Shown here: in pieces, positions 2,886-35,407 of the stretch
Numbering within the stretch: position 1 is the first letter of the stretch
Layout: each line of letters starts with the position of its first letter
Origin: Candidatus Amphirhobacter heronislandensis
GTDB lineage: Bacteria > Pseudomonadota > Gammaproteobacteria > Tethybacterales > Tethybacteraceae
Length of the DNA: 47,075 nt
NCBI GenBank assembly: GCA_001750625.1
Contig: MEIE01000005.1
Span: 1-47,075, forward strand
Reading direction: 5' to 3'
Program-made: the position numbers and the translations under genes
Notes under the pieces: model-generated
Told to the model about the DNA's origin: nothing
Seen by the model: only the letters and a program-made list of their open reading frames with translations
Database searches by the model: none

Positions 2886-3644
2886 TTACCAATATTTCTC
2901 GATGGTGACGTTGCCGGGCCGGGCGCGGCGGTTGCGCTCGAGGCCCTTGGCCTGCAGCAGCGCGCAGACCTCCTGGACCATCGCCGGATTGCCGCACAGC
3001 ATGAACTGGCAGCTCGCGTCGAGCGCCGTTTTGGTGAGGCGCTCGAGCTCGCCGCTGGCGATCATCGCCGTCACCCGCTCGTTCGCGACGCCCTCGACCC
3101 GCTCGCGGGTGACGATCGGGACGTAGGCGAACTGCTTGCGCCGCAGCGCCGCGATCTCGGCGAGCTGGTCGTCGTAGAGCAGGTCCTGCCGCAGCCGCGC
3201 CGAATACACCAGCGCGATCTTCTCGTACCTGCTCCAGACCTCCTCGCCCGCCTGCAGGATGGAGACGAAGGGGCCGATGCCGGTGCCGGTCGCGATCATG
3301 AACAGGCTCAGCGCCTCGGGCACGTTCGCCAGCGTCAGCAGGCCGTTCGGCCGCATCGACACCAGCACCTCGTCGCCGGCGGCCAGCTCGGCGAGCCGCG
3401 GCGTCAGGTTGCCGCCCTCGGCCAGGACGTCGTAGCAGAACTCCAGCGTCGCCGCGGCCGGCGGATTCACGAAAGAATAGGCCCGCGCCAGCGGCTTCGC
3501 CTCGCCGTCCTGCGGCAGGCCCAGCTTGGTGAACTGGCCGGGGACGAAGTCCAGTCCCGGCGGCCGGGCAACTTGTAAAATACGCAGCTGGGACGTCGGG
3601 GCGAGCTGGCCCGCAACCTGGGCGGCCTGATATTCCTCGGGCAT
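2886..3644 (-). CDS. fpr: Ferredoxin/flavodoxin--NADP+ reductase family protein
   Basis: RAYSFVNPP (FAD), MIATGTGIGPFVSIL (NADP), C-terminal NVTIEKYW; start taken at MPEEYQ (3644) rather than the longer 3806 ORF. Confidence 0.85.
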   Translation of the reverse strand: MPEEYQAAQVAGQLAPTSQLRILQVARPPGLDFVPGQFTKLGLPQDGEAKPLARAYSFVNPPAAATLEFCYDVLAEGGNLTPRLAELAAGDEVLVSMRPNGLLTLANVPEALSLFMIATGTGIGPFVSILQAGEEVWSRYEKIALVYSARLRQDLLYDDQLAEIAALRRKQFAYVPIVTRERVEGVANERVTAMIASGELERLTKTALDASCQFMLCGNPAMVQEVCALLQAKGLERNRRARPGNVTIEKYW

Positions 3645-4800
3645 GCGAACCTTTATGCTGGCAAGGCTGAATTCTACAATTTGCGGCCTGCTCGCCGCCG
3701 CCGCCTGGGCCAGCGCCGACCCCGCCACCGCGCTCGCGAAGGCGGTGCTGCCACCGGGCTTGAAGATCGTGCAGCTGGACGCCGGCCTCGACCGTCCCGC
3801 CGGCATCGACGTGTCGGCTGCCGGGCACTTGGCCGTCGGCAGCTACGGCGACAGCCTCTACCTCTACGAGCGGCTCCCCGACGGCAACGTCATCAGGCAC
3901 ATCCTCTCCGGCATGCGGGCGCCGACCGGCGTCGCCTGGCTCGGCGACGACCTGGTCTTAACCCAAGGCTCCTACTTGATAATGATCGCCGAGCCGCTCG
4001 CGAAGCTGCGCGAAGGCCGGGCGCTCGCGCCCCAGCAGCTCGCCAAGATCAACAAATCCTCGGGACGCCGGTTCCTCAAATACGACGGGGAACGGGAGCT
4101 TCTTTACGTCGGCGTCCCGTCCTCCTGCAACGCCTGCCAGGTTCCCGGCGAGGAGCTGGCGGGGACGATCATCGCCTACGACCTCAAGGCCAAGAGCAGC
4201 TACGTCCACGCCCGCGGCCTGCGCGCGCCCCGCAGCCTTGACGTCCATCCGGCCACCGGCGAGCTGTGGGCGACGGACGCCAGCGCCTACCGGCACCCGC
4301 CGGTCCCGACGCCCGCCGACGAGCTCAACCGCATCACCGCCCAGGGGCTGCACTTCGGCCATCCCCACTGCCACGGCATCGCTGGGCCAGAGGGCGAAGG
4401 CAGTCCCGGCTGCGACGGTTACGCGGCCCCGGCCGCGCTGCTCGACGCGCGCAGCCAGCCCCACGGCCTGCATTTCATCCGCAGCGACGCGCTGCTCGAG
4501 CCGGGCTCGGCGCTCGTCGCGCTGCGCGGCGGCTGGAAGGAAAAAGACGGCGGGCCGCGCGCCGGCTTCGAGGTGCGGCAGCTCCTGCTCTCGGCCGACG
4601 GCCGGCAGATTCTCGGCAGCAAGCCGTTCATCACCGGCTGGCTCGATGCGGACGAGCGCTACTACGCCCGGCCGGCCGGCATCGGCGAAACCGCCGAAGG
4701 CTCGATCCTCATCACCGACAGCGCCAACGGCGCGATCTACATCGTCTCAAAAGACCAGGGCAATGCATCAGGCCAGCATCAAGACGCCGGCGGAAATTGA
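3643..4800 (+). CDS. Secreted sorbosone/glucose dehydrogenase-like beta-propeller protein (alternative start 3655)
   Basis: Signal-peptide-like N-terminus; GLDRPAGIDVSAAGHLAVGSYGDSLYLYE, HGLHFIRSD, GSILITDSANGAIYIV typical of PQQ sugar dehydrogenase-like propellers. Confidence 0.75.
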   Translation: MRTFMLARLNSTICGLLAAAAWASADPATALAKAVLPPGLKIVQLDAGLDRPAGIDVSAAGHLAVGSYGDSLYLYERLPDGNVIRHILSGMRAPTGVAWLGDDLVLTQGSYLIMIAEPLAKLREGRALAPQQLAKINKSSGRRFLKYDGERELLYVGVPSSCNACQVPGEELAGTIIAYDLKAKSSYVHARGLRAPRSLDVHPATGELWATDASAYRHPPVPTPADELNRITAQGLHFGHPHCHGIAGPEGEGSPGCDGYAAPAALLDARSQPHGLHFIRSDALLEPGSALVALRGGWKEKDGGPRAGFEVRQLLLSADGRQILGSKPFITGWLDADERYYARPAGIGETAEGSILITDSANGAIYIVSKDQGNASGQHQDAGGN

Positions 4801-20226: not shown

Positions 20227-21009
20227 AGCGCAAGGACTACGAAGCGCTAGGCCTAGGAGTCTGGCACGACTGGGCGCGGCGGCTGCATGCGCCAGCCCCT
20301 GCTCCCGCTCCGACCCCGGCGGCGGTACCCGCCAAGCCTGCGGCCGCGGCGAAGGAGGCTGACCCCAGACCCGCCGCGGCGCCACCCAAGCCTGCGCCCA
20401 AGTCCACGCAGGCCAAGCCTGCCAAAGCAGCCAAGCCGGCCGCGAAGAAGGCGGACGCTCCCGCCCGCTCCACCGTGACCCTGCAGCCGCTGGCGGATCT
20501 TGAAGCCGAGGTGAAGCAGTGCGTCAAATGCGGGCTGAGCAAGGGCCGCACCAACACGGTCTTCGCGCGGGGCAAGAGCGTGACCAATGCGGTGATGTTC
20601 ATCGGCGAGGGGCCGGGCGAAGAGGAAGACCAGCAGGGCCTGCCCTTCGTCGGCCGCGGCGGCAAACTGCTCGACGCCATGATCGATGCCCTGCCGAAAC
20701 TGCAGGAGAAGGACGTCTACATCGCGAACATGGTCAAGTGCCGACCGCCGAACAACCGCGATCCTGAACCTGAGGAGCTGGCGGCCTGCCGTCCCTACCT
20801 CGACCGGCAGATCGAGCTGATCCAGCCGGAGGTGATCGTCACGGTCGGCAAGGTGGCCGCGAACAACCTGCTGGGTGCGCGGCGTGGTGCACGAGCACCG
20901 TGGCTGCAAGGTGATCTGCATGTACCACCCGGCCTACCTGCTGCGGGCGCCGATGCAGAAGCGCCAAGCTTGGAACGATCTGCTTTTTCTAGGCAAGCAA
21001 CTTTCCTAG
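20223..21009 (+). pseudogene. Family 4 uracil-DNA glycosylase, interrupted by a frameshifting deletion near 20876-20880
   Basis: Frame 1: [18 protein letters not shown]...[29 protein letters not shown]...NMVKCRPPNNRDPEPEE...VGKVAANNLLG, then sense jumps to another frame: RGVVHEHRGCKVICMYHPAYLLRAPMQKRQAWNDLLFLGKQLS* ending 21009. Confidence 0.85.
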
Positions 21010-21029
21010 CCCCTCTCAAGAGATCCGCA

Positions 21030-21067
21030 TGATCTAATAGTGTATAATGTTAGATCATATTGATCTA
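21030..21067 (+). promoter_or_regulatory. Operator-like repeats overlapping a TATAAT -10 (21043-21048) upstream of the DUF262 gene
   Basis: TGATCTAA (21030-21037) - TTAGATCA (21050-21057) - TGATCTA (21061-21067), alternating inverted half-sites bracketing TATAAT. Confidence 0.55.
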
Positions 21068-21084
21068 TTGGGGGATTTGGCGCC

Positions 21085-22791
21085 ATGGACATTAAGAGCA
21101 ACGACACCGTCAGCTTGGAAAAAATTCTCAATCTGGGCACCCTTCATGTGCCTAAGTTTCAGCGCGATTATTCTTGGAGCAAGACCGAATGGAAGGAGCT
21201 CTGGGAAGACATAGACGACACATTCAGCACTTCCATGCAGATTGATCACCACTACATGGGCTATATGGTTCTGCAAGAGCATGCACCCGAAGCCGACGAG
21301 CACTTCGACATAATCGACGGTCAGCAACGCATAACCACTCTCTCCCTTCTTCTGCTTGCAGCCGTCCAGCATATCAAGGACATGGCACCTTCTAGCGAAA
21401 GAATAACTCTCCTCTTTGAAGCTTGCATAGGAAGCAAAAGCCCCACTACCCTCGAAATCACCAATAGACTGATTCTCAACAAACACAATAATCCGATTTA
21501 CTCAGAGTTGCTCAAACTAGATGGCGGACCGAACCGCAAAGAGATGATTGGGTCCAATCGACTTCTTTGCGGGGCCTTCGACTTTTTCAAAGAAATGATT
21601 GGCAAAAAATGCACCGGCGGTGAAAATGATTTTGCCGAGCTGGCGGGCGGCATCCTAAAAAACCTTCACTTCACATACATAACCGCAAGCAGGGATACAA
21701 ATATATATAAAATTTATCAGACGCTAAATGCTCGCGGCCTTGAACTATCAATTAGCGACTTGCTTAAAAACCATCTATTCACAACTATAGACAGCAAAGA
21801 AGGCCTGGGAGAAAAGCAAATAGATGATCTTCAGGATAGGTGGCGAGATATTGAAGACAATGTCAAAGCGGCCAATCTTGCAAAATTCATATCCTTGGAG
21901 TGGAACAGGCGCAATGAATTTTGCCGTAAGAAAGAGTTGTTCCAAAAGATAAGCAACGAACTTGACACTTCCCAAAGCGTTCATAGATATCTACGCACGT
22001 TAGATGGGAGCAGCAAAATGTACGCTCAATTACTCAAGTATGATCCTGATTACTGGAACAAAAGATGTCGAAAAATCACAGGTGAGATTCGAGCATGCCT
22101 TCGCTGCCTCAACGCCTTAGGAATCAAAAGTCCGCATGGACTATTGTTGACCGCCCTTCAAGAAATGTCGGATGAAGCCGAGCGCCTAAAGTCTATTCTT
22201 CGAATAATTACAGCGATTTCGGTTCGCTATAACTGCATATGCCAGAAACAAGCAAATATACAGGAGCAAACATACAGCAAAATTGCCAACGCCATTTCTC
22301 GAAGAAAATTTAAATTCGATGACAGAACTAAACAAATGTTTCAGGACATGTATCCTTCAGACAAAGAGTTTGAGGCCGCCTTTGCAGAAGTAGAATTTAA
22401 CTCTGCCCTCAAGCCTAAGTACCTCCTAATGTCCCTAGAAAACAATATAAACACAAGGGATATGATAGGCAAAAGCAAGGTGACCTTGGAACATATACTG
22501 CCTAAGAAGCCAAGCAACGAGTGGAAAAAAGATTTTCCCGGCAAGATTCATGAAAACTATATCCACAGATTAGGGAACATGACTTTGCTTCCCGAAAAGC
22601 CCAACAAAGAGCTTCGCAACAAACCTTTTAAGGAAAAGAAAAAAGAATTTAAAAAATCCTCAGTATTGCTGACTAAAACACATGTAAGCAAATATTCTGT
22701 TTGGAATCCGAAAAACATTGATAAGCATCAGCGATTTCTTGCCAAGTCCGCGCTTAAGGTCTGGTTCATCAACTGGGATTCGATCAAATGA
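21085..22791 (+). CDS. DUF262 / C-terminal HNH (DUF1524-like) protein, GmrSD-type restriction-like
   Basis: VPKFQRDYSW, FDIIDGQQRITTLSLLLLA (DGQQR), YQTLNARGLELSISDLLKN, C-terminal VTLEHILPKKP...HRLGNMTLLPEKPNKEL. Confidence 0.88.
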   Translation: MDIKSNDTVSLEKILNLGTLHVPKFQRDYSWSKTEWKELWEDIDDTFSTSMQIDHHYMGYMVLQEHAPEADEHFDIIDGQQRITTLSLLLLAAVQHIKDMAPSSERITLLFEACIGSKSPTTLEITNRLILNKHNNPIYSELLKLDGGPNRKEMIGSNRLLCGAFDFFKEMIGKKCTGGENDFAELAGGILKNLHFTYITASRDTNIYKIYQTLNARGLELSISDLLKNHLFTTIDSKEGLGEKQIDDLQDRWRDIEDNVKAANLAKFISLEWNRRNEFCRKKELFQKISNELDTSQSVHRYLRTLDGSSKMYAQLLKYDPDYWNKRCRKITGEIRACLRCLNALGIKSPHGLLLTALQEMSDEAERLKSILRIITAISVRYNCICQKQANIQEQTYSKIANAISRRKFKFDDRTKQMFQDMYPSDKEFEAAFAEVEFNSALKPKYLLMSLENNINTRDMIGKSKVTLEHILPKKPSNEWKKDFPGKIHENYIHRLGNMTLLPEKPNKELRNKPFKEKKKEFKKSSVLLTKTHVSKYSVWNPKNIDKHQRFLAKSALKVWFINWDSIK

Positions 22792-22831
22792 AATCTTGGA
22801 AACATTTTCCTAAAGCATGCGGTCGCTTTCT

Positions 22832-23506
22832 TCAGGATTTCATCATGGTTTCCTGAAATCTCCGATCAAATTCCTTTTCCCTGACCCAGCTAAAGCGCTT
22901 AGGGCTGACAAAAGACGCTGCCATGCGGTTGGATATCAAGCCAGCGATTTTTGCCTGGAATGACCGATCTTCAGGATTCTCGTGGTCCCCCTCCTTCGAG
23001 CTGTCGTCAGGCACCAGCATGATATAGTGGATGTTTGCATATTTGAAGATGCTAGCCAGCTCTCGATCCACTCCCACTTGATACATTCTCTCGAGAATGA
23101 GGAGCGTGGCCTGCGCTTTTGCGACATGCTCTTCGCAGAGTTCCCGGAAAATGAGATTCCAGATCTTGCGGGCACGCCGGCTTTCGTTGATTTTCGCAAT
23201 CAAGCCACGTCTATCTTCCTTGGCGAGGCCGGGCGCCAGATTTTTCAAGGCTTCCTTGAAACGATCTAAAGCGAGGTCGACTGATTTTGCGAAATCAGTC
23301 TTTTCGATGAGGACGAGACTTTTGCCCTCTTCAGTCTCGACGACTTTGTAGTAGTCGCAGCGATGCATGCGCCCGAAGTCAGCCCAGAGCTGGAGCACGA
23401 AAGACTCGCGTCCGTCCTCCTCATCAAGGCTCACCGCCTCGATGGCACTTCCTGCCGCCACCCGCTGCCGGTAGCAGTCGAGGATTATGATCCTAAGCGC
23501 GAGCAC
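22832..23506 (-). CDS. Hypothetical protein (224 aa), translationally coupled to the upstream ATPase
   Basis: GTG start at 23506 overlaps the 3' end of the ATPase (stop at 23493) by 14 nt; no motif recognised. Confidence 0.7.
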   Translation of the reverse strand: MLALRIIILDCYRQRVAAGSAIEAVSLDEEDGRESFVLQLWADFGRMHRCDYYKVVETEEGKSLVLIEKTDFAKSVDLALDRFKEALKNLAPGLAKEDRRGLIAKINESRRARKIWNLIFRELCEEHVAKAQATLLILERMYQVGVDRELASIFKYANIHYIMLVPDDSSKEGDHENPEDRSFQAKIAGLISNRMAASFVSPKRFSWVREKEFDRRFQETMMKS

Positions 23507-24792
23507 GCATCATTTCTCCGAAAAGGATTTGCATGTACACTTCGTTCAGCGAGTCCTGAATGAACTTGTCCTTGGTGAAGTAGTTCGCGGCGACTATCCG
23601 ATCGAGAACATCACTGTCCCTGACGCTGTATTTAAGATACTGGAGCGTGAACGTGCTGTGCGTCGCAATCACTATATTGATCCCTTTCAGGGCAAGCTTG
23701 GTTAAAACAACCGCCAGCGACGACTGCCATGCCGGATGCAGGTGCAGCTCGGGATCGTCTATGAAAATGGTTGAGTTCTCCTGCACTAGGCCCCGCTCAA
23801 CAAGTGCCAGCGGAGGCCATTGAAGCCTCGATTCTGAGGCCTTTCTTCCCCTTGAAATAAAGCTGGCCGCCTTCGTACTCGAACTTTCCTCCTATGATTT
23901 CGCTGATTTGATCCAGCTCTTCTTGGAAATCCCCTTGCGCGGCCCGAGGGAAGTCAAGCATCTTCGACAAATCCTCGTGGTAAGAAGGAAAGCATTTGGC
24001 CAAGCCATTCCCCCTTGGCATCCTGAAGCTTTCGATGCTGACCTGGGTTTCCAAGTTATCCAGATAGATGACAGAAGGCATGCCGCTTATTTTTGCAGCA
24101 TTTTTGACTGCGACCTTGCATTTGTTGCCCGTAGTCGCGAAGCTAAGCGCGCCCTTGATGTCGAGGCTGAATTCTTTTCGCTCTCCAGCTGCCAGCGCTG
24201 AAAGCCTGGGCGCCATGAAACTGCCCAGCAGCAAATCCGGCAAGGTCCGTTCAAGGGATTTGTGAAGAATCTTTTCCGGCGACAGCCTGGCAAAGGCCTT
24301 GATCGCCCGCACCGCGCGCTGGATTTCCTCGTAGTCCGTGCGAGACCCCCTCTTTTTGGCGGCAGCGGCCCCATTGGCCCGTTTCTTCGCGGCGCCGTTG
24401 CACATGGCTTCCGCCGTGAAAGCCGGCGCGGCGGCTACGGCGCGGACGCGCTCAACATAGCTCGCGCCGTCCCGCTCCAGGAAATGCAGGACATGCGCTG
24501 GCATCTCCGCAAGCTCCGCGATTTCCCGCCTCAGCGGGTCGGAACGCCTCCTGGCTCCGTAAGGCAGCAGCCGATGAAGGGTTTCGATCTCATGGCCGAC
24601 GAGGTTCCAGGCGTGATTGGAGTTGACCGCCCGCAGCGCCGAGTACAGCGTCTTGGCGGCGTAGGTCTTGCCCGAGCCGTTCCAGCCGCAGAACAGCGTG
24701 AGCCCGCCCAGGCCGATGCTCCCATTAGGGAGATTGCCCAGATTTTTTATGCTCGCAGTGAGTTTTATGGTGAATTCCTGCCCCGGGACAAT
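23493..24792 (-). pseudogene. AAA/ABC-type ATPase paralog 1 (P1), frameshifted at ~23803-23806
   Basis: N-terminal part in ORF 23797-24879 (Walker A GWNGSGKTY), C-terminal part in ORF 23493-23786 (Walker B STIFIDDPELHLHPAWQ, H-loop IVIATHSTF); aligns with the intact paralog 24988-26352. Confidence 0.85.
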
Positions 24793-24987
24793 TATAACAT
24801 ATGTTTTTCTTTTTTTCAGACAAGACCGGAAAAGCCCGGTACTACAAGCAAAAATATATCCTTTGCCGCCTGGTTTCATCGAAAATCAGCTCCGGCGCGC
24901 TCCAAAGGCTGGGAAATAGGACGCCAGCCATCTCCCCTTCGGCTCTTCACCCTGCCCTCTGCCTGCAGAGATCGATCTCCCAAGTGC

Positions 24988-26352
24988 CTAGTCGCCGGCA
25001 AAGCCCCGATACATGGTGCGCACGTAGGTCTCGCTGAGCATTGCCTGGACCTGCTTCATCCTGTCGTAGTTATTGTCGTAATCCTTGAGCTCCCCGTTGA
25101 TTCCCTTGCCGCAGCTGCAGTGATTCACCGCGAACATCTTATCGAAAGCCTCGCTGTTCCGCGCGCGGTATTTCAGATGCTGGATTATGTAAGGGCTGTT
25201 CGTCACCAGCACTATGTTGATTCCGTCCAGCGCCAGACTGGTCAGGATCTTGGAAAACTCGACCTGCCACGCCGGATACAGGTCCGCCTCGGGCTCGTCA
25301 ATGAAAATCGTGGCGTTCTCCCGCAGCAGCCCCCTCTCGGCAAGCAGTCCCAGAATTCCAAGCCGCCGCACGCCAGCAGAAGCCAGCGCGGCGTTGATTC
25401 TGCGCCTCTTCTTCTCCTTGAAATGCAGGACGCCGTCTGCGTACTCGAGTTTTCCTCCGATGGTTTCAGCGATCTGGGCGCCAATGTCCCGAGAAAGGCC
25501 GGACGCGGACGGCGGACGGTCAAGCATGTCCAGGAAATCGTTGTGGTAGCAGGGAAAGTCTTCCGCTATCCCGTGCTGCGACCTCAGCCTGCCGAAGGCC
25601 CTTATCAGGCCGCTGCTGATCTTGGCCTCCATCCCGTCCAGGTAAATGACTGACGGCATCGCGCTGATTTTCGCAACGTCCTTGACCGCAAGCCTGCATT
25701 TGCTGTCCGCCGTGGCGAATCTCAGCACCCCCTTGATGTCAAAGCTGAAACCGCTTTTCCCGCCGGCGGCCAGCGCCGACAGCCCGGGCGCCATGAAACT
25801 GCCGAGCAGCAAAGCGGGCAGCGAGCTTGCAAGGGATTTTTGCAGCACCTTCTCCGCCGGCATCCTGGCAAATCTTTTGATCGCCTTTATTGACCTCTCC
25901 ATCTCGGCGAAATTGGCCTCCGCCACCCTGTCAGTGATCCTGCGGCCGTTCCTGAACCTCTTGGCGAATCCGGGATGCAGCGCCTCCGCGCAAAAACCCT
26001 GCCGCCCGGCCAAGGCGCGCACGCGCTCAGCGTAGCGGCCTTCCTTCAGGAGATGCGGGGGCATCCCCGCGAGCTCGGTTATTTTCCGCCGGAGGACAGC
26101 GGTCTTCCCAACAGGCCCGGCAGGCAGCGAGTGAGCGATCGTTTCGACATCATGGCCGACGAGGTTCCAGCCATGGTCGGCGTTCGCCGCCCGCAGCACC
26201 GAGTACAAGACCTTGGAGACATAGGTCTTGCCCGTATTGTTCGGGCCGCAGAGAAGCGTGAGGCCGCCCAGGCCAATCTCCCCCTTGGGAACCTTGCCCA
26301 GATTGGCTATGGAAGCGGTGAGTTTAATTTTGAAATCGCTACCTCGGGGCAT
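24988..26352 (-). CDS. AAA/ABC-type ATPase paralog 2 (P2)
   Basis: Walker A LLCGPNNTGKTYVSK, Walker B ATIFIDEPEADLYPAWQ, NIVLVTNSPY at the H-loop position. Confidence 0.85.
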   Translation of the reverse strand: MPRGSDFKIKLTASIANLGKVPKGEIGLGGLTLLCGPNNTGKTYVSKVLYSVLRAANADHGWNLVGHDVETIAHSLPAGPVGKTAVLRRKITELAGMPPHLLKEGRYAERVRALAGRQGFCAEALHPGFAKRFRNGRRITDRVAEANFAEMERSIKAIKRFARMPAEKVLQKSLASSLPALLLGSFMAPGLSALAAGGKSGFSFDIKGVLRFATADSKCRLAVKDVAKISAMPSVIYLDGMEAKISSGLIRAFGRLRSQHGIAEDFPCYHNDFLDMLDRPPSASGLSRDIGAQIAETIGGKLEYADGVLHFKEKKRRRINAALASAGVRRLGILGLLAERGLLRENATIFIDEPEADLYPAWQVEFSKILTSLALDGINIVLVTNSPYIIQHLKYRARNSEAFDKMFAVNHCSCGKGINGELKDYDNNYDRMKQVQAMLSETYVRTMYRGFAGD

Positions 26353-26411
26353 ATTATAACATGATTTTCATTTTTTGCAGGCACGCCTCGCCTTGCGCAG
26401 GGCCAGGCTAG

Positions 26412-26417: not shown

Positions 26418-26469
26418 ACAACGCCTTACCAAGGGATTTTTTCAAAAAACCAGCCCCGGCGCAGTGGAA

Positions 26470-28920
26470 ATGCAGGACAAATACGACGCCAAGGCGGTCG
26501 AGCAGGCCGTCCGGCGGCGCTGGGAGGAGCGCGGCGCCTTCGCCGTCAAGGACGACGACCCCCGGCCGAAGTACTACAGCCTGTGCATGTGGCCCTACCC
26601 CTCGGGCGACCTGCACGTCGGGCATCTGCGCAACTACTCGATCGGCGACGTCTGGGCGCGCCACAAGCGCATGCAGGGCTTCAACGTCCTGCAGCCGATG
26701 GGCTGGGACGCCTTCGGCAAGGACGCCGAGCTCAAGGCCCGCAAGGAAGGAATCCACCCGGCCGCCTGGGTGGAGTCGAACACCGCGAACATGCGCCGCG
26801 AGCTCAGGGAGCTGGGCTACATGGTCGACTGGAGCCGCGAGCTGGCGACCTGCAACCCGAAGTACTACCGCTGGGAACAGCACCTGTTCCTGCGGATGTG
26901 GGAGAAGGACCTGGTCTACTACAGCCCGACCAAGGTGCTGTGGGACAAGGCCACCGGCACGGTGGTGGCGCGCCGCGACGTCGACGACGGCAAGGTGGCG
27001 CGGCAGGACGTCGAGGTCAGGGAGTTCCCGGCCTACCAGATGCGCCTGCGCCGCTACGGCGAGGAGCTGCTGGCGGGCCTGGCGAAGATCGCCTGGCCGG
27101 AGAAGATCGTCAAGGACCAGCAGTACCTGATCGGCCGCAGCGAGGGCATGAGCATCAGGTTCGCGCTGGAAGCCCCCGCCGCCGGCCTCGAGGAGATCGA
27201 GGTCTACACGACTCGCCCGGACACCCTGATGGGCGTGACCTACATGGCGGTCCACGCCAGCCACCCGCTGGCCGCGGCGGCCGCCGAACGCGACCCGAAG
27301 ATAAAGGAGTTCTGCGAGCAGGCCCTGCAGATCCTGCCGATCGACGCCGGCAACGCCGACAGCGAGAAGAACGGCGTCGCGCTCGACGTCCGCGTCCTCA
27401 ACCCGGTCTCGGGCGAGCCGGTCCCGGTGTGGGTGGCCGACTACGTCATCGACGACTACGGCAGCGGCGCGCTGATGGGCGTGCCGGCCCACGACGAGCG
27501 CGACTTCAGCTTCGCCCGCAAGTACGGCATCCCGATCGTCCGCGTCAACGCCCTGCCCGGCGCCGACCCGGCGGCGCCGGTCGAGCAGGCCGAGGTCGCC
27601 AAGGGCGTCGCGGTCAACAGCGGCCCGCTGGACGGCCTCGACCTCGCCGGCTGCGTCGCGAAGCTCGAGGAGCTGCTGGGCCCGAAAGGCAAGGCGCGGC
27701 GCGACCACAACATGAGCCTGCGCGACTGGCCGATCAACCGGCAGATGTACTGGGGCACGCCGATTCCGATCATCAAGTGCGCCAAGTGCGGCCTGGTGCC
27801 GGTGCCCGACGAGGACCTGCCGGTGGAGCTGCCGCTGGACGTCGACTTCCTCAAAGAAGGCCTCGCCTCCCACCCCGAGTTCGTCAACGCCAAGTGCCCC
27901 AAATGCGGCGCGGACGCGCAGCGCGAATGCGACACCATGGACACCTTCGTCAACTCCGCCTGGTACTACGCCCGCTTCGCCTGCCGCGACGCGGCGGACG
28001 AGATGGTCGCGGCGCGGGCCGCGCCCTGGCTGCCCTGCGACCACTACTTCGGCGGCGACGAGCACGCCCAGGGCCATCTGGTCTACGCGCGCTTCATCCA
28101 CAAGGTGATGCGCGACCTGAAGATCCTGCCGCCGGAGTCCGGCGACGAGCCCTTCGCGGCGCTGCTGTGCCAGGGCATGGTCCTCGGCAGCGACCGCAAG
28201 AAGATGTCCAAGTCGCAGGACAACACCGTGATGGCCAAGGACATCCTCGAGCGCTACGGCGCCGACACCGCGCGCATGTACATCATCGGCATCGGCAATC
28301 CCAAGGACGCCTACCCCTGGAACGAGGAGCACGTCCGCGACCACGCCCTGTTCCTCGAGGCGCTGTGGACCCTCGCCCGCGAGCGCCGCGAACAGGTCGC
28401 CGCCGGCGCGGACGCCGAGCCGGCGGCGGCGAACGGCCTCGCGCTCAAGCGGCTGCAGGCGGCGATCGACCGCAACCTCAAGGAGCAGCGCTTCAACAAC
28501 CTGGTCTTCGGCGGCATCCACTCCATCCGCAACCTGGTCCGCGACAACCCCGAGGACGCGGGCCTGCAGCATCAGGGCTTCGCCGCGCTGCTCAAGACGC
28601 TCAACCTGATCGCGCCGCACGTCGCCGAGGAATTGTGGGCCGGGCTCGGCTACGAGGGCCTGCTGATTGACGCCTCCTGGTGGGAGCCGATCGCGGCGGC
28701 CGAGCTGCAGGGCGACGAGCAGCTGTACGTCGTCCAGGTCAACGGCCGCAAGCGCGACGAGCTGACGGTCGCCGCCGGCCTCGGCGACGAGGAGGTGATC
28801 GCGGCCGCGCGCGCCTGCGCCAACGTCGCCCGCCACCTCGAGGGCAAGCAGGTCGCCCAGGCCAAGGTCGTGCGCAAGCCCGGCGGCCACGGCATCGTCT
28901 TCTTCGTCGCCAAGGGATGA
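26470..28920 (+). CDS. leuS: Leucyl-tRNA synthetase (GTG at 26464 also possible)
   Basis: YPSGDLHVGHLRNY (HIGH), TTRPDTLMG and GVPAHDERD editing motifs, KKMSKSQDNTV (KMSKS). Confidence 0.98.
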   Translation: MQDKYDAKAVEQAVRRRWEERGAFAVKDDDPRPKYYSLCMWPYPSGDLHVGHLRNYSIGDVWARHKRMQGFNVLQPMGWDAFGKDAELKARKEGIHPAAWVESNTANMRRELRELGYMVDWSRELATCNPKYYRWEQHLFLRMWEKDLVYYSPTKVLWDKATGTVVARRDVDDGKVARQDVEVREFPAYQMRLRRYGEELLAGLAKIAWPEKIVKDQQYLIGRSEGMSIRFALEAPAAGLEEIEVYTTRPDTLMGVTYMAVHASHPLAAAAAERDPKIKEFCEQALQILPIDAGNADSEKNGVALDVRVLNPVSGEPVPVWVADYVIDDYGSGALMGVPAHDERDFSFARKYGIPIVRVNALPGADPAAPVEQAEVAKGVAVNSGPLDGLDLAGCVAKLEELLGPKGKARRDHNMSLRDWPINRQMYWGTPIPIIKCAKCGLVPVPDEDLPVELPLDVDFLKEGLASHPEFVNAKCPKCGADAQRECDTMDTFVNSAWYYARFACRDAADEMVAARAAPWLPCDHYFGGDEHAQGHLVYARFIHKVMRDLKILPPESGDEPFAALLCQGMVLGSDRKKMSKSQDNTVMAKDILERYGADTARMYIIGIGNPKDAYPWNEEHVRDHALFLEALWTLARERREQVAAGADAEPAAANGLALKRLQAAIDRNLKEQRFNNLVFGGIHSIRNLVRDNPEDAGLQHQGFAALLKTLNLIAPHVAEELWAGLGYEGLLIDASWWEPIAAAELQGDEQLYVVQVNGRKRDELTVAAGLGDEEVIAAARACANVARHLEGKQVAQAKVVRKPGGHGIVFFVAKG

Positions 28921-31900
28921 GCGCTTCAGGCGTGCGCTGCCGCGCGATGCCGCTGAGCCTGAGCGAGGAGCTCAACGCCGGCTCGTGCCGCAGCCTGCTG
29001 CTGAGCGACGTGATCGCGCGGCTGCGCCGCATGCAGGGCGAGCGGGTCGAGCCGGGCGCCAGCTGGGACAGCTTCGGGGCGGGCGTGCACATCGCGGCCA
29101 AGAACGAGGGCCTCGCGCCGCAGACCTACGTGCGCCGGACCATCGCCGCGCACCGCAGCGCGCTCGAGCGCCTCGACCTGCTGCTCGATCCCGGCGCCAT
29201 GCTCGACACCAGCGACCCGGCGCACGTCAAGTGGATCCAGGAGCTGTTCGTCCTGCTGTGGCGGGAGCGGCCGGCGACGCTGAACGAGGCCAAGGCGCAC
29301 AGCCACGCCTACTGGGATCCGGGGACCAAGAGCAACCTGGCGCTCAAGCAGATCGTCAACGGCCGCGGCTTCTTCTCGGGCATGCTGATCGAGATCCGCG
29401 AGGCCAGCTCCTACGAGATCCCGGTCTCGGTGGAACTGGGCGAGCGGCTGCTGGCCGGCCTCGAGCGCCTGGTCGGCTGGGACGACTTCGTCAAGAGCAT
29501 GCAGCGCGAGAGCGTCGGCCTCGAGGACGGCCTGCGCATGAGCTTCGGCCTTTTCGATCCGGCCCACCGCCGGCTGGAGCCGCTGGAGATCTTCACCTCG
29601 CGGCCGGACACCCTGCTCGGGACGACCTTCATCGCGGTCGCGGCCGACCATCCGCTGGCGCGGCGCATCGCGCACGACAGCGCCGCGGTCCGCGCCTTCC
29701 GCGAGGAGGTGATGCGGCCCGAGTACGCCTACCAGCGCCTCGGCGACGACAAGAGCCGCGACGGCGTCGAGCTCGGCGTGTACGCGGTCAACCCGGTCAA
29801 CGGCGACCACATCCCGGTGTGGGCGACCAACTTCGTGGTCGCGGGCTACGGCACCGGCGCGGCGCTGGGCATCCCGGGCCACGACCTGCGCAACCATCAT
29901 TTCGCGCTGCGCCACAACCTGCCGATCCGCCGGGTCGCGGTCGAGGACGGCGCCGACCCGACCGCCCCGATCAACTCGCCCTACGTCCACAAGCAGGGCC
30001 GCGCGGTCAACAGCGGCGCGCTGGACGCGGCGATCAACCGCCGCAAGAGCAGGCTGCGGCGCGAGGGCAACGACGGCGGCGGCGCCAGCCTGCGCGCCAA
30101 GCAGGACTGGGACCGCGGCGTCGCCGAGGAGGTGATCGCCTTCCTGGCCGAGCGCGGGGTCGATGCCACGCCGGCGACGATGGCGCGGCTGCGCGGCTGG
30201 AAGATCAGCCAGCAGGACTGCTGGGGCTATCCGGTGCCGCTGGTCCACTGCGAGGCCTGCGGGACCGTGCCGGTGCCGGCCGCCGAGCTGCCGCTGATGC
30301 CGCCGAAGTACGCCGAAGGCAAGGAGCTGCTGAGCGACTACCCGGCCTTCATCGCCTGCCGCTGCCCGCGCTGCGGCGGCAAGGCCGAGCGCGACGCCGA
30401 CACGCTGTCGAGCTATTTCGACGCCGCGGTCCAGCATCTCGCGGCCGGCGGCAAGAACATGACGTGGCGCGGCAAGGCCAAAGCGCGGCCGGTGGACTAC
30501 TACTGCTGCGGGGTCGAGCACGCCACCAACCATCTGCTGACGGCGCGCGTCATCCAGCGGCTGCTGGCGCAGGCGGGCCGGCTGGCCGGCGCGGCCGAGC
30601 CCTTCGCCGCGCTGCTGTGCCAGGGCACGGTGCTGAACTACGGCCTGCCGATGGCGCCGGGCTACGGCAACGCGGTGAGCGTCGCGAGCCTGCTGGACGC
30701 CTACGGCGCCGACCTGCTGCGGCTGTACGTCGCGACCGCGGCCGATCCGCGCCACCCGCTGCACTGGGACGAAAGCCGGCTGCTGGCGCTGCAGGGCGTC
30801 ATCGACGGCAAGGACCTCGCGGCGCTGCGGCGCGGCCGCCTGCGCGGGCTCAAGGCGGACAAGGTGGCGAACATGCTGAGCCCGCGGGAGCTGCGCCGGC
30901 TGCGCGAGGGCCTGCTGGGCCCCGAGGAATACGGCCTGCTGCTGCGCGACCGCCTGCCGGCGGCGCGGCTGCGCAAGGTCAAAAAAATCATCGGCGTAAG
31001 CGAGCTGGCGCGGCTGCGCGAAGGCATGTTCAGCGCCGCGCAGCTGCGGCGGCTGCGCAAGGGGGAGCTGACGCCGGCCGAGCAGGCCGCGGCGGCGGCA
31101 GAGTTCGACGCGCTGGAGCTGCGGCGGCTGCGGGACGGCCTGCTCGAGCGGCACGAGTTCGCCGCCCTGCTGCGCGGCGAACTGCCCGCCAAGCGCCTGG
31201 GCCAGGTCCAGCGCCACTGGCCGGCGGCGCTGCTCGCGAAGCTGCGCGCCAGCGGCGCCGACCCGGCCGACGCGGCCGCCGTCGCCGAGCTGCAGGAAAA
31301 GATCCTGACCCCGCTCGAACTGGTGGACGCTTTGCGGCAGGAGCAGCGGCTCGCGGCCGAGCGCAAGGCGCGGACGGTGCTGCGCGACGCCGACGTCCAG
31401 CGCCTGCGCGGCGGCCTGCTCGACCGCGGCGAGTGGAAACGGCTGCGCCAGGGCAAGCTCGCCGGCGCGAAGATGAAGGCGGCCAGGGAGCTGGCCGGCG
31501 AAGACGGGCTGGCGCGCATGCGCGGCGGCCTGCTCGACGAGGACGAGTTCGCCGCGCTGCTCGCCGGCAAGCTGCCGGCGGCCAGGCGGGCGCGGGCGGC
31601 GAAGCTGGTGGGCGAGGCGGCGCTGCGGCGCCTGCGGGCGGCGCGCGGCGCGCTGGCGCGGCTGCCGTTGCTGGAGAAGATCATGCCGGCGGAGCGCCTG
31701 TTCGGGACGCTGGCGGCCGGCGAGCCGGACGCCGGGCTGCGCCGGCGCCTGCTGGCCGTGCTCGACGCCAAGGAGCTCGCCAGCCTGCGGCAGGCGGCGG
31801 CCGCCCTGCCGGCGGACGGCTGGGTCCGGCTGACGGCCTTCGTCGACGAGCGGCGCATGGCGCGGCTGTGCGGCTTCGTGCCGGCCGCGAAGGAGAACAA

Positions 31901-32711
31901 ACTGGCGCGGCTGCTGGACGCGGTCGAGCTCAGGAGGCTGCGCGAGGAGGCGCGGCCGCGGCCGCCATTGCTGCGCTTCTTGCCGCCGGCGCGGATGGAC
32001 CGGCTGTGCGGCTTCATCGACGAAAGCAAGATGGACCGGCTGGTCAACCACCTCGACCCCGAGCGCATGGAGCTGCTGCTCGGCTTCACCGGCGCGCTGC
32101 GCGACCTGTTCGCGCGCAAGGACGCGGTCATCCGCGCCGGCGCGCGCCCGGACCCCGCCGATCCGCGCCGCGACGAGCTGCGGCGCGTCCTGCAGGCGCT
32201 CGGCTCCTGCTACGGCCTGGACCGGCGCCACGGCGTCCCCGAGCCGCAGCGCGCGCTGCCGCGCCTGCGCGAGCTCGCCGCGCTGCTCGAGACCGCATGC
32301 GACCCGGCCGACGCCGCGGACGCGGGTTTCGCCCGCGAGGCGGCGCGCGCCCTGCTGCTAGCGGCGCACCCCCTGCTCCCGGGCCTGACGGCCGAGCTGT
32401 GGGCCGCGGCCGGCTTCAAGGGCCAGCCGCTCGACGCGCCCTGGCCGCAGGTCGCCGCGCGCAAGGGCAAAGCGCGGGCGCGGCAAACCTGCATCATCCA
32501 GGAAAACGGCGCCAAGCGGCTCGTCACCGAGCACGAGGCCGGCCTGGCCGCGGCGCAGGCCAAGCGGCTGGCGCGGCGGGAGATGGCAAGATACGTCCAT
32601 GACCGCGGCTACCCGAGCTACCCGCGGCCGGGCGAGCGCATCCTCCGGACCGAGCACGTCGAGCGGCCGCACGAGACGGTGATCAACTTCGTCCTGGGGC
32701 CGGCGCGATGA
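28917..32711 (+). CDS. LeuRS-like protein lacking HIGH and KMSKS, with inserted 38-aa repeat array (~1264 aa)
   Basis: ATGA overlap with leuS stop; [17 protein letters not shown]~[40 protein letters not shown]~[38 protein letters not shown]~[27 protein letters not shown]~[24 protein letters not shown]~AEELWAGLGYEG. Confidence 0.9.
   Translation: [1264 protein letters not shown]
30885..31730 (+). repeat. Coding tandem repeat, 114-bp (38-aa) units: 30885, 30999, 31113, (irregular 31227-31388), 31389, 31503, 31617
   Basis: Units [38 protein letters not shown] / [38 protein letters not shown] / [38 protein letters not shown] / [38 protein letters not shown] / [38 protein letters not shown] / [38 protein letters not shown]. 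Confidence 0.85.
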
Positions 32712-33160
32712 GGCGCGCGCTGCTGGCGGCGGCGCTGCTGCTGGCGGGCTGCGGCCTGCAGGCCTACGACCCGCGCGGCCTCGGCGCCGGGCCCTTCGAG
32801 ATCGACGCCGACAGCCCCGCGCTGGCCGCCGACCTGCGGCTGCGCATCGCCCGCCTCGAGGCGGCCGGCGGCCGGCCGATGCGGCTGCGGCTGGACGAGG
32901 GCTTCAGCAGCGGCCTCGCCTCGCGCGTCATCAAGGGCCACGCGACCAAGCGCGAGCTGCGCTACGAGCTCAGCTACGTCCTGTACGAGAACGGCGCCGA
33001 GCTGCACCGCGGCGACTTCAGCGCCAGCCAGGTCCTCGACAACGACGAGACCCTGCACCGCGCCAACCTGCTGAGCGACGAGCGCTTCATCGAGCAGGCG
33101 CGGCTGCGCGGCATCGACTACCTGCTCGTGGACCTGCGGCGGCGGCTCGGCGGCCTGTGA
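32708..33160 (+). CDS. lptE: LPS-assembly lipoprotein LptE
   Basis: Lipobox LLAGCG; conserved position leuS-lptE-holA; RELRYELSYVLYENGAEL, VLDNDE. Confidence 0.8.
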   Translation: MRRALLAAALLLAGCGLQAYDPRGLGAGPFEIDADSPALAADLRLRIARLEAAGGRPMRLRLDEGFSSGLASRVIKGHATKRELRYELSYVLYENGAELHRGDFSASQVLDNDETLHRANLLSDERFIEQARLRGIDYLLVDLRRRLGGL

Positions 33161-34170
33161 TCGACAGCGAAAAGCTTGGGAGGCACCTCGCCGAGGACGA
33201 GCTGGCCCCGGCCTACCTGGTCACCAGCGACCAGCCCTACCTGCAGGGCCAGGACCGCGACGCGCTGCGGGCCGCCTTCGCCTGCGAGGAGCGGCACCTG
33301 TTCTTCGGCGACGCCAAGGACGCGGTCGCCGAGGCCGCCGCCGTCGCCGCGACCGGCAGCCTGTTCAGCTCGTCGGTGCTGGTCGAGCTGCTGTATCCCG
33401 GCGAGATCGCCGAAAAGGCCGCGGCCGAGCTCGTCGAGCTCGCCGAAACGGCCGCCGCGAACAATGTCAGGCTGCTGGTCGGCTGCGCCGGCCTGAGCCG
33501 GCCGCGGAACTGGAAAAATCCCGCGCGGCTCGAGGAGGCCTTCACGCGGGTCAACCTCGCCGAGATCCCGGCGGCCCGGCTCGCGGGCTGGATCGAATCC
33601 CGCGCGACGCGCCTGGGCCTGCGGCTCGACCGCGAGGCCGCCGGCCTGCTGGCCGAGCTGCACGAGGGCAACCCCGACATGGCCGCGATGGAGCTCGAGA
33701 AGCTGCTGCTGCGGCACGGCGAGGAGCCGGTGGGCCTGGCCGAGCTGCAGGGCGGCGACGGCGCCGACCACAGCATCGACAGCGTCTTCAGCCTCAACGG
33801 CCACCTGGCGCGCTGCGACGCCCGCCGGACCATCCGGGCGCTGCGGCACTTCCGCGCGACCCGCGAGGAGCCGACCCTCGTGGTCTGGAGCCTGGCCTCG
33901 CAGATCCGGGCGATGCGGGCGATGCAGGAGCGGACCAAGGCCTGGGGCTTTTTCCCGCCGGCGACGCGGCGGGCGATGCAGGACCTCGCGCGGCGGATGC
34001 CGCCCGCGCATTTATTAGAATTGAACGCCGCTTTAAGCCGTGCCGACCTTGCCGCCAAGGGCCTGCTCGGCCCCGGCGGCGACATCTGGCTCATCCTCGA
34101 ACGCTTCTGCGCCGCCTTCATCTATGCCGCCAAGCATGGCCGCCTCGTCCGCAAGCTCATCCGCAGCTGA
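33157..34170 (+). CDS. holA: DNA polymerase III delta subunit
   Basis: AYLVTSDQPYLQGQDRDALR, HEGNPDMAAMELEKLLL, position after lptE. Confidence 0.88.
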   Translation: MIDSEKLGRHLAEDELAPAYLVTSDQPYLQGQDRDALRAAFACEERHLFFGDAKDAVAEAAAVAATGSLFSSSVLVELLYPGEIAEKAAAELVELAETAAANNVRLLVGCAGLSRPRNWKNPARLEEAFTRVNLAEIPAARLAGWIESRATRLGLRLDREAAGLLAELHEGNPDMAAMELEKLLLRHGEEPVGLAELQGGDGADHSIDSVFSLNGHLARCDARRTIRALRHFRATREEPTLVVWSLASQIRAMRAMQERTKAWGFFPPATRRAMQDLARRMPPAHLLELNAALSRADLAAKGLLGPGGDIWLILERFCAAFIYAAKHGRLVRKLIRS

Positions 34171-35407
34171 CCCCGCCGCGGCGCTCGACGCCCTCGTCGC
34201 CGCCAAGGGGCCCCTGGCCAGCTCGGCCGCCGCTCAGCGCGACGATGCCATCGAGCGCTTCGAGGCCAACCTCGAGCAGGCGCGGGCCGAGATCCAGGAG
34301 GCCAACGCCGCCGAATGCGCCCGGGCCGAGGCCGACGGCCTGAGCGCGCCCTTGCTGCGGCGCCTGCGCCTCGACGGCCGCCACTACGACGGCATGCTGG
34401 CGTCGCTGCGGGCGCTGCGCGCCCTGCCCGACCCCATCGGCGGCGTCTTCGATGAAAGCGAGCAGCCCTCGGGCATCACCACGGCGCGCATGCGGGTGCC
34501 GCTGGGGGTGATCTGCTTCATCTACGAATCGCGGCCGGCGGTGACCGCCGACGGCGCCGCGCTGTGCGTCAAGTCCGGCAACGCCGCCATCCTGCGCGGC
34601 GGCAAGGAGGCGCTGCAGAGCAACCTGCTGATCGCCGCCCAGATGGACCGGGCGCTGAAAGAAGCCGGCCTGCCGGCGGCGGTCGCGATGCTGCCGACCG
34701 CCGACCGGGCGCCGCTGGACGCCATCTTAGCCGACCCCCGCATCGACATGGTGATCCCGCGCGGCGGGCCGGGACTGGTGCGCAAGGTCAAGGAGACCGC
34801 GCGCTGCATGGTGCTCGCCCACCTCGACGGCAACTGCCACGTCTACGTCGCGGCCAGCGCCGACCTCGCGATGGCGCGGCGCATCGCCGTCAACGCCAAG
34901 ATCGGCAATCCGAGCACCTGCAACGCGGCCGAGTCGCTGCTGGTGCACGAGGACGCCGCGGCCGCATTGCTGCCGCCGCTGGCGGCCGAGCTCGCGGCAA
35001 AAGGCGTCGTCCTGCGCGGCTGCGAAGCGACCCGGGCGCTGCTTGGCGACGCGGCCGAGGCGGCGGCCGAGGAGGACTGGGGCCGCGAGTACCTCGACCT
35101 GGTCCTGTCGTGCAAAATCGTCCCGGACACCGCCGCGGCGATCGCCTGGATCAACCGCTACGGCTCGCACCACACCGACTGCATCGTGAGCGGAGACGCC
35201 GCCGAGCAGCAGCGCTTCTGCCGCGAGGTGGACTCGAGCTCGGTGCTGGTGAACACCTCGACCCGCTTCGCCGACGGCTACGAGTACGGCCTCGGCGCCG
35301 AGACCGGCATCTCGACCGGCAAGTTCCACGCCCGCGGCCCGGTGGGCCTCGAGGGCCTGACGACGGCCAAGTGGGTGGTCCGCAGCGCCGGCGCGGTCCG
35401 GGAGTGA
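34124..35407 (+). CDS. proA: Gamma-glutamyl phosphate reductase (alternative start 34136)
   Basis: RVPLGVICFIYESRPAVTADGAALCVKSGNAAILRGGKEA, NAKIGNPSTCNAAESLLVH, RFADGYEYGLGAETGISTGK. Confidence 0.96.
   Translation: MPPSMAASSASSSAADPAAALDALVAAKGPLASSAAAQRDDAIERFEANLEQARAEIQEANAAECARAEADGLSAPLLRRLRLDGRHYDGMLASLRALRALPDPIGGVFDESEQPSGITTARMRVPLGVICFIYESRPAVTADGAALCVKSGNAAILRGGKEALQSNLLIAAQMDRALKEAGLPAAVAMLPTADRAPLDAILADPRIDMVIPRGGPGLVRKVKETARCMVLAHLDGNCHVYVAASADLAMARRIAVNAKIGNPSTCNAAESLLVHEDAAAALLPPLAAELAAKGVVLRGCEATRALLGDAAEAAAEEDWGREYLDLVLSCKIVPDTAAAIAWINRYGSHHTDCIVSGDAAEQQRFCREVDSSSVLVNTSTRFADGYEYGLGAETGISTGKFHARGPVGLEGLTTAKWVVRSAGAVRE

Follow-up and report, generated by a model that had tools for sequence, protein, structure and literature searches.

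Directly behind leuS, the gene for LeuRS, Candidatus Amphirhobacter heronislandensis has a second LeuRS-like gene, leuS2, which, as read from its codons and signature sites, is a coding, non-catalytic LeuRS paralog carrying an array of 38-residue repeats. We consider it best explained, at a probability of roughly 40%, as a prozyme-like, non-catalytic partner of LeuRS, in which the array would bind LeuRS and/or tRNA-Leu. The window, that is the whole stretch of 47,075 nucleotides that was analysed, is a single 47-kb contig (G000:C185) from an assembly of 1.6 Mb in 239 contigs, 87.6% complete. Its relevant features are collected in Table 1.

Table 1. Features of the leuS2 locus and its surroundings, by position in the window
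Feature	Positions	Strand	Remarks
GmrSD-type restriction gene	21085-22788	+	in low-GC stretch
OLD/PD-T4-4_A-like ATPase ORF	23800-24879	-	in low-GC stretch
OLD/PD-T4-4_A-like ATPase ORF	24991-26352	-	in low-GC stretch
Canonical leuS (P0001)	26464-28920	+	HVGH and KMSKS intact; TIGR00396 750 bits, above cut-off 548
leuS2 (P0002), LeuRS-like paralog	28917-32711	+	1264 aa from ATG 28917; alternative start ATG 28947
LeuRS-homologous part of leuS2, residues 15-621	28959-30779	+	LeuRS profile positions 46-621; 444 bits
Degenerate HIGH site LNAGS	28971-28985	+	both His lost (alignment)
CP1 editing domain, retained	29514-30032	+	PF13603 142.8 bits, E 1.1e-41
KMSKS-equivalent site PMAPG	30648-30662	+	both Lys lost (alignment)
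Degenerate repeat unit U0	30780-30887	+	12.3 bits; one period before U1, exactly in register
Repeat unit U1	30888-31001	+	29.7 bits held out
Repeat unit U2	31002-31115	+	13.8 bits held out
Repeat unit U3	31116-31229	+	35.1 bits held out
54-aa spacer	31230-31391	+	1.4 bits with core profile, hence not recognised
Repeat unit U5 (fourth unit of the earlier note)	31392-31505	+	27.7 bits held out
Repeat unit U6 (fifth unit of the earlier note)	31506-31619	+	40.6 bits held out
Helical, charged segment without LeuRS homology	31620-32306	+	from profile and model; holds the sixth unit of the earlier note
Remnant: end of anticodon-binding domain and C-terminal domain, residues 1131-1228	32307-32600	+	LeuRS profile positions 702-800
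lptE homologue	32708-33160	+	34% identity to the ORF that separates leuS from holA in the sister genome; name from synteny
holA	33157-34170	+	TIGR01128 109 bits
proA	34040-35407	+	PRK00197 493.7 bits; longest ORF given

The architecture of leuS2 was defined with a LeuRS profile built from 20 canonical LeuRS. Homology with bacterial LeuRS (TIGR00396) extends over two stretches, a long one that takes in the editing domain and the Cys-x2-Cys pairs of the zinc module, with all four zinc-type cysteines kept, and a short remnant near the C-terminus, which scores 27.8 bits in the full protein and 32.2 bits when the tail is taken alone. In contrast to bacterial LeuRS, leuS2 has neither HIGH nor KMSKS nor, in the profile alignment, any counterpart of the first ~45 LeuRS residues, and the match to TIGR00396 (337.3 bits) is under the curated cut-off of 548.4. 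The anticodon-binding domain is also incomplete: residues 622-1130 (~509 residues, the array included) stand in place of profile positions 622-701 (~80), which are unmatched. Overall, leuS2 retains 118 of 222 near-invariant LeuRS positions. The earlier note had put the repeats into a LeuRS-like protein, which is right as far as the homology goes, but this protein is not the LeuRS proper of the bacterium; its gene is a second, catalytically stripped one directly behind an intact leuS. The note's placing of the array is likewise right in part: the array does come shortly after the KMSKS-equivalent segment but, rather than being inserted before an intact anticodon-binding domain, it replaces the first ~80 positions of that domain.

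The best-kept part of leuS2 is CP1, with 29 of 39 near-invariant residues retained. The threonine of TSRPDT is kept in the alignment, and one key Asp has become Asn; we take this Asp to be the equivalent of E. coli LeuRS D345. Such preservation, together with a PF13603 match of 142.8 bits, would suit an alternative in which leuS2 edits in trans, as a stand-alone deacylase whose CP1 clears mischarged tRNA-Leu and whose array is a tRNA-docking module. We regard this as rather improbable given the Asp to Asn change and the intact editing residues of the catalytic LeuRS, which leave no need for a second deacylase evident.

Despite its extreme divergence, leuS2 shows the same codon-position contrast as its neighbour genes in every segment (GC3 0.94-0.98 against GC2 0.47-0.55). 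This shows it to be coding in frame throughout and argues against a pseudogene; a wrong frame or spurious ORF is ruled out by the same contrast. Charging of tRNA-Leu by the product is, to judge from what it has lost, very unlikely: in full-length LeuRS, combinatorial mutants of HIGH and KMSKS lose the catalytic (rate) advantage (PMC10450160), and leuS2 is without more than these two signatures. The loss of both signatures and of the first ~45 residues favours reading leuS2 as a non-catalytic partner.

The gene lies in one operon, leuS-leuS2-lptE-holA-proA, and overlaps both neighbours by ATGA, at 28917-28920 with the leuS stop and at 32708-32711 with the lptE start. The order leuS-lptE-holA-proA is typical of beta- and gamma-proteobacteria. 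It is also found in the family sister genome (G001), with nothing between leuS and lptE and with leuS2 absent, so that leuS2 is seen to be a second gene inserted in a conserved operon. The downstream genes score alike in the two genomes (holA 109 and 112 bits, proA 494 and 493 bits); the lptE homologue has no Pfam match, and the true start of proA probably lies further in than that of the longest ORF. Tandem position with ATGA overlaps, inside an operon that the sister has without leuS2, again favours the partner reading. Elsewhere in the window, at 3643-4797 on the forward strand, a 385-aa ORF with coding-type GC has no Pfam match.

The strict 38-residue, 114-bp period described in the earlier note is real. 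The best local BLOSUM62 self-match scores are 149 at a lag of 38, 110 at 76, 166 at 130 and 119 at 168, whereas over 300 shuffles the maximum per shuffle was 40 +/- 6 and never exceeded 65; contiguous units are exactly 114 bp apart. Each unit was further scored with a leave-one-out profile HMM built from the other four, for which the best of 2000 shuffled segments reached 12.8 bits (Table 1). The degenerate unit U0, for which the best of 2000 shuffles was 11.9 bits, begins at the boundary where LeuRS homology stops (residue 621/622). The layout had been given as three units, an irregular 54-aa spacer and three more. The first five units and the spacer, at exactly 54 aa, are confirmed. The sixth unit, from 31620, fails at -1.5 bits with the core profile, being helical and charged and only loosely unit-like. 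By eye the spacer can be taken for a unit interrupted by 16 extra residues, a reading that gains no support from the same profile. After the array, at 31620-32110, motifs of the type RMARLCGF, RMDRLCGF and LDPERMELLLGF resemble a second, more diverged helical repeat.

The units are 26-50% identical to one another as protein and 46-62% as DNA, identical residues in different units are often encoded by different codons, and TRF reported no array at the leuS2 repeat region. The identities, the codon differences and the TRF result point to an old repeat that has been kept as protein, and a recent tandem expansion at the DNA level is ruled out by the DNA identities and the TRF result.

The array was correctly described as charged: it is strongly basic, with a pI of 10.9 and a net charge of +20 over 271 aa. 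The segments after it are basic too (pI 10.1 for the C-terminal 207 aa of leuS2), while the catalytic LeuRS has a pI of 5.7. The basic pI is owed in part to a genome that is 70% GC and Arg-rich; it is nevertheless counted for the partner reading. AlphaFold modelled the whole array alone poorly (pLDDT 48) but as all-helical. A 182-aa stretch gave pLDDT 78.8 and pTM 0.50, again with helices only, on an alignment of shifted copies (other units) of the same array, so that its confidence is partly self-made. The helical part of the helical-solenoid proposal is thus borne out by prediction; a regular solenoid is not established, the pTM of 0.50 giving moderate confidence at best.

No characterised family matches the units or the array in Pfam, among PDB sequences or with Foldseek, and the statement that LeuRS has no such repeats was upheld. 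Pfam searches to E = 10 returned only DUF4880, at 0.0035 and below the cut-off, on one unit; the best match in a PDB profile search with the array was 0.038; and Foldseek against PDB and BFVD gave nothing below E = 2.2 for the array model. There was no profile match to TPR, PPR, HEAT, SHOCT or other Pfam helical repeat families for units or array. A likeness to SHOCT or the end of EF-hands, seen by eye, was not upheld by Pfam, and a match to ribosomal protein uL10/P0 at E 0.02 was judged to be chance between Ala/Arg/Leu-rich sequences. On the predicted structures, then, the array is an orphan helical repeat, for which a role as an RNA- or protein-binding surface, as first suggested, is plausible.

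We know leuS2 from one genome. No second paralog or array was found elsewhere in that genome, nor any relative of either in 387 genomes of the class, four other genomes of the order, 59 relatives or 399 genomes of the phylum; in all, the comparison took in about 900 genomes. Pattern scans of GTDB 220 and of viral contigs, which used exact short peptides and so detect close relatives only, found none. Among plasmids and phages, the matches to leuS2 were ordinary LeuRS only, covering 48-49%. When the N-terminal part was used for a tree, leuS2 fell on a very long branch beside the two LeuRS of the family, with weak support. A clade of leuS2 with the neighbouring LeuRS is not rejected (p-AU 0.30), such long branches making the placement unsure. 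The two proteins share 9 of 128 private residues, no more than leuS2 shares with other LeuRS, which lends no support to a recent duplication from the accelerated neighbour (see below). By these sequence comparisons leuS2 would have arisen either by duplication of a LeuRS gene or by acquisition.

The lack of detectable relatives, the many conserved residues lost and the occurrence in a single lineage are what would be expected if leuS2 were a decaying or neutral duplicate whose array had expanded harmlessly in a genome rich in Ala, Arg and Leu. We nevertheless think decay quite unlikely, for the gene stays open over 1264 codons, shows a coding-type GC contrast along its whole length and overlaps cleanly with both neighbours, it has kept the four zinc-type cysteines and an editing core, and its units are conserved as protein even though identical residues often use different codons.

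The catalytic LeuRS encoded next door is itself unusual. Both its place in the operon and the fact that it groups with LeuRS of the family sister (99/99 support) argue that it is the native enzyme. Its branch in the LeuRS tree measures 1.27 against 0.31 in the sister, a difference of about fourfold, whereas the MetRS branches of the two, in a tree from the same set of genomes, measure 0.39 and 0.37, by which a genome evolving fast as a whole is ruled out for MetRS. It has kept 173 of 222 near-invariant columns (49 lost), compared with 213-222 in 19 LeuRS from other genomes, and its 750 bits against TIGR00396 compare with 1017 for the sister LeuRS. The overlapping genes and the fast-changing catalytic LeuRS together suggest that leuS2 is a partner.

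Some points count against this. First, conserved residues were not lost in a complementary way: the losses in the two copies coincide more often than expected (odds ratio 2.96, p = 0.002), which rules out complementary loss and means that a simple split of conserved residues between two subunits did not happen. Second, HIGH, KMSKS and the editing residues are all intact in the catalytic LeuRS, which may be a self-sufficient enzyme. Third, the link between its acceleration and leuS2 is a correlation from a single lineage. Given the incomplete assembly, a further, normal leuS may also lie elsewhere in the genome.

In our reading, a LeuRS gene was duplicated or acquired and lost its leucine/ATP site, and a basic array of helical repeats came to stand in for the front of its anticodon-binding domain. 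As a partner, the protein would now be made by coupled translation directly behind the catalytic LeuRS. Using the array together with the editing and C-terminal parts that it has kept, it would bind the catalytic LeuRS, tRNA-Leu or both, and would in this way support or regulate leucylation. That LeuRS here should be an obligate two-subunit enzyme, in which the new-type array of the dead paralog has taken on a share of the tRNA binding while the catalytic LeuRS became partly impaired, appears doubtful to us on the sequences at hand.

Directly upstream of leuS, positions 20900-26400 have a low GC content (41-60%) in a contig of ~70% GC, and from the genes listed in Table 1 this stretch looks like a defence island. 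As these defence-like genes stop only ~110 bp before leuS, leuS2 could be linked to them (GmrSD and the OLD-like ATPases, 21-26.4 kb) and protect tRNA-Leu or LeuRS. We hold this to be highly improbable, the GC and coding make-up of leuS2 being those of the host operon and not of the island, and PADLOC having no match for it.

The tRNA-Leu genes found among 42 tRNA matches in the genome (CAA, UAG, UAA and GAG) look ordinary. tRNA-Leu CAG was not found among these matches, although CTG is the codon most used for leucine (135 of 176 in leuS2); a gap in the incomplete assembly may account for its absence.

The closest described relatives of leuS2 are the weakly or non-charging LeuRS duplicates of archaea, LeuRS-I of Sulfolobaceae and LeuRS2 of Halobacteria, in which a second, diverged LeuRS, presumably non-charging, likewise stands beside a working one (PMC9437257); here the motifs of the first copy suggest that it is active. 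The C-terminal domain of LeuRS-I is acidic, and the protein can still form leucyl-adenylate (PMC9437257), while leuS2 is basic at its C-terminal end (207 aa, pI 10.1), is without both signatures, lies in tandem with leuS and has a repeat array. Since the archaeal duplicates, though non-charging or poorly charging, still bind tRNA-Leu (PMC9437257), leuS2 might similarly have kept those LeuRS surfaces that contact tRNA and be a free-standing tRNA-Leu- or RNA-binding regulator with a role apart from LeuRS, in sensing or moonlighting, and its basic array would fit. Such a regulator would not specifically predict the overlap directly behind leuS or a changed catalytic copy, and much of the tRNA-contacting anticodon-binding domain has gone from leuS2; we think it possible but unlikely.

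For the partner reading the closest described behaviour is, by analogy, that of a prozyme pair. In trypanosomatid deoxyhypusine synthase the catalytic subunit is impaired and depends for its activation on a dead paralog (PMC3663545). Both this enzyme and AdoMet decarboxylase (PMC5201418) share with leuS2 the pairing of a dead paralog with an unusually diverged catalytic one; they are unrelated to LeuRS, and complex formation and activation were measured there, while the present pair is known from sequence. HisZ, a HisRS paralog that is the regulatory subunit of HisG (PMC9437257), is also a catalysis-free synthetase paralog serving as a subunit, but it is of class II, its partner is a biosynthetic enzyme and it has no repeats.

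Catalytically inactive synthetase paralogs are thus already known as a class. Within a limited literature search, we know of no dead tandem twin that overlaps a bacterial LeuRS, has an orphan repeat array in its anticodon-binding domain and stands beside an accelerated working copy. If the partner model is true, it would show how a universal, normally monomeric enzyme can come to depend on a second subunit, and with the leuS/leuS2 pair this path could be tested directly on two proteins.
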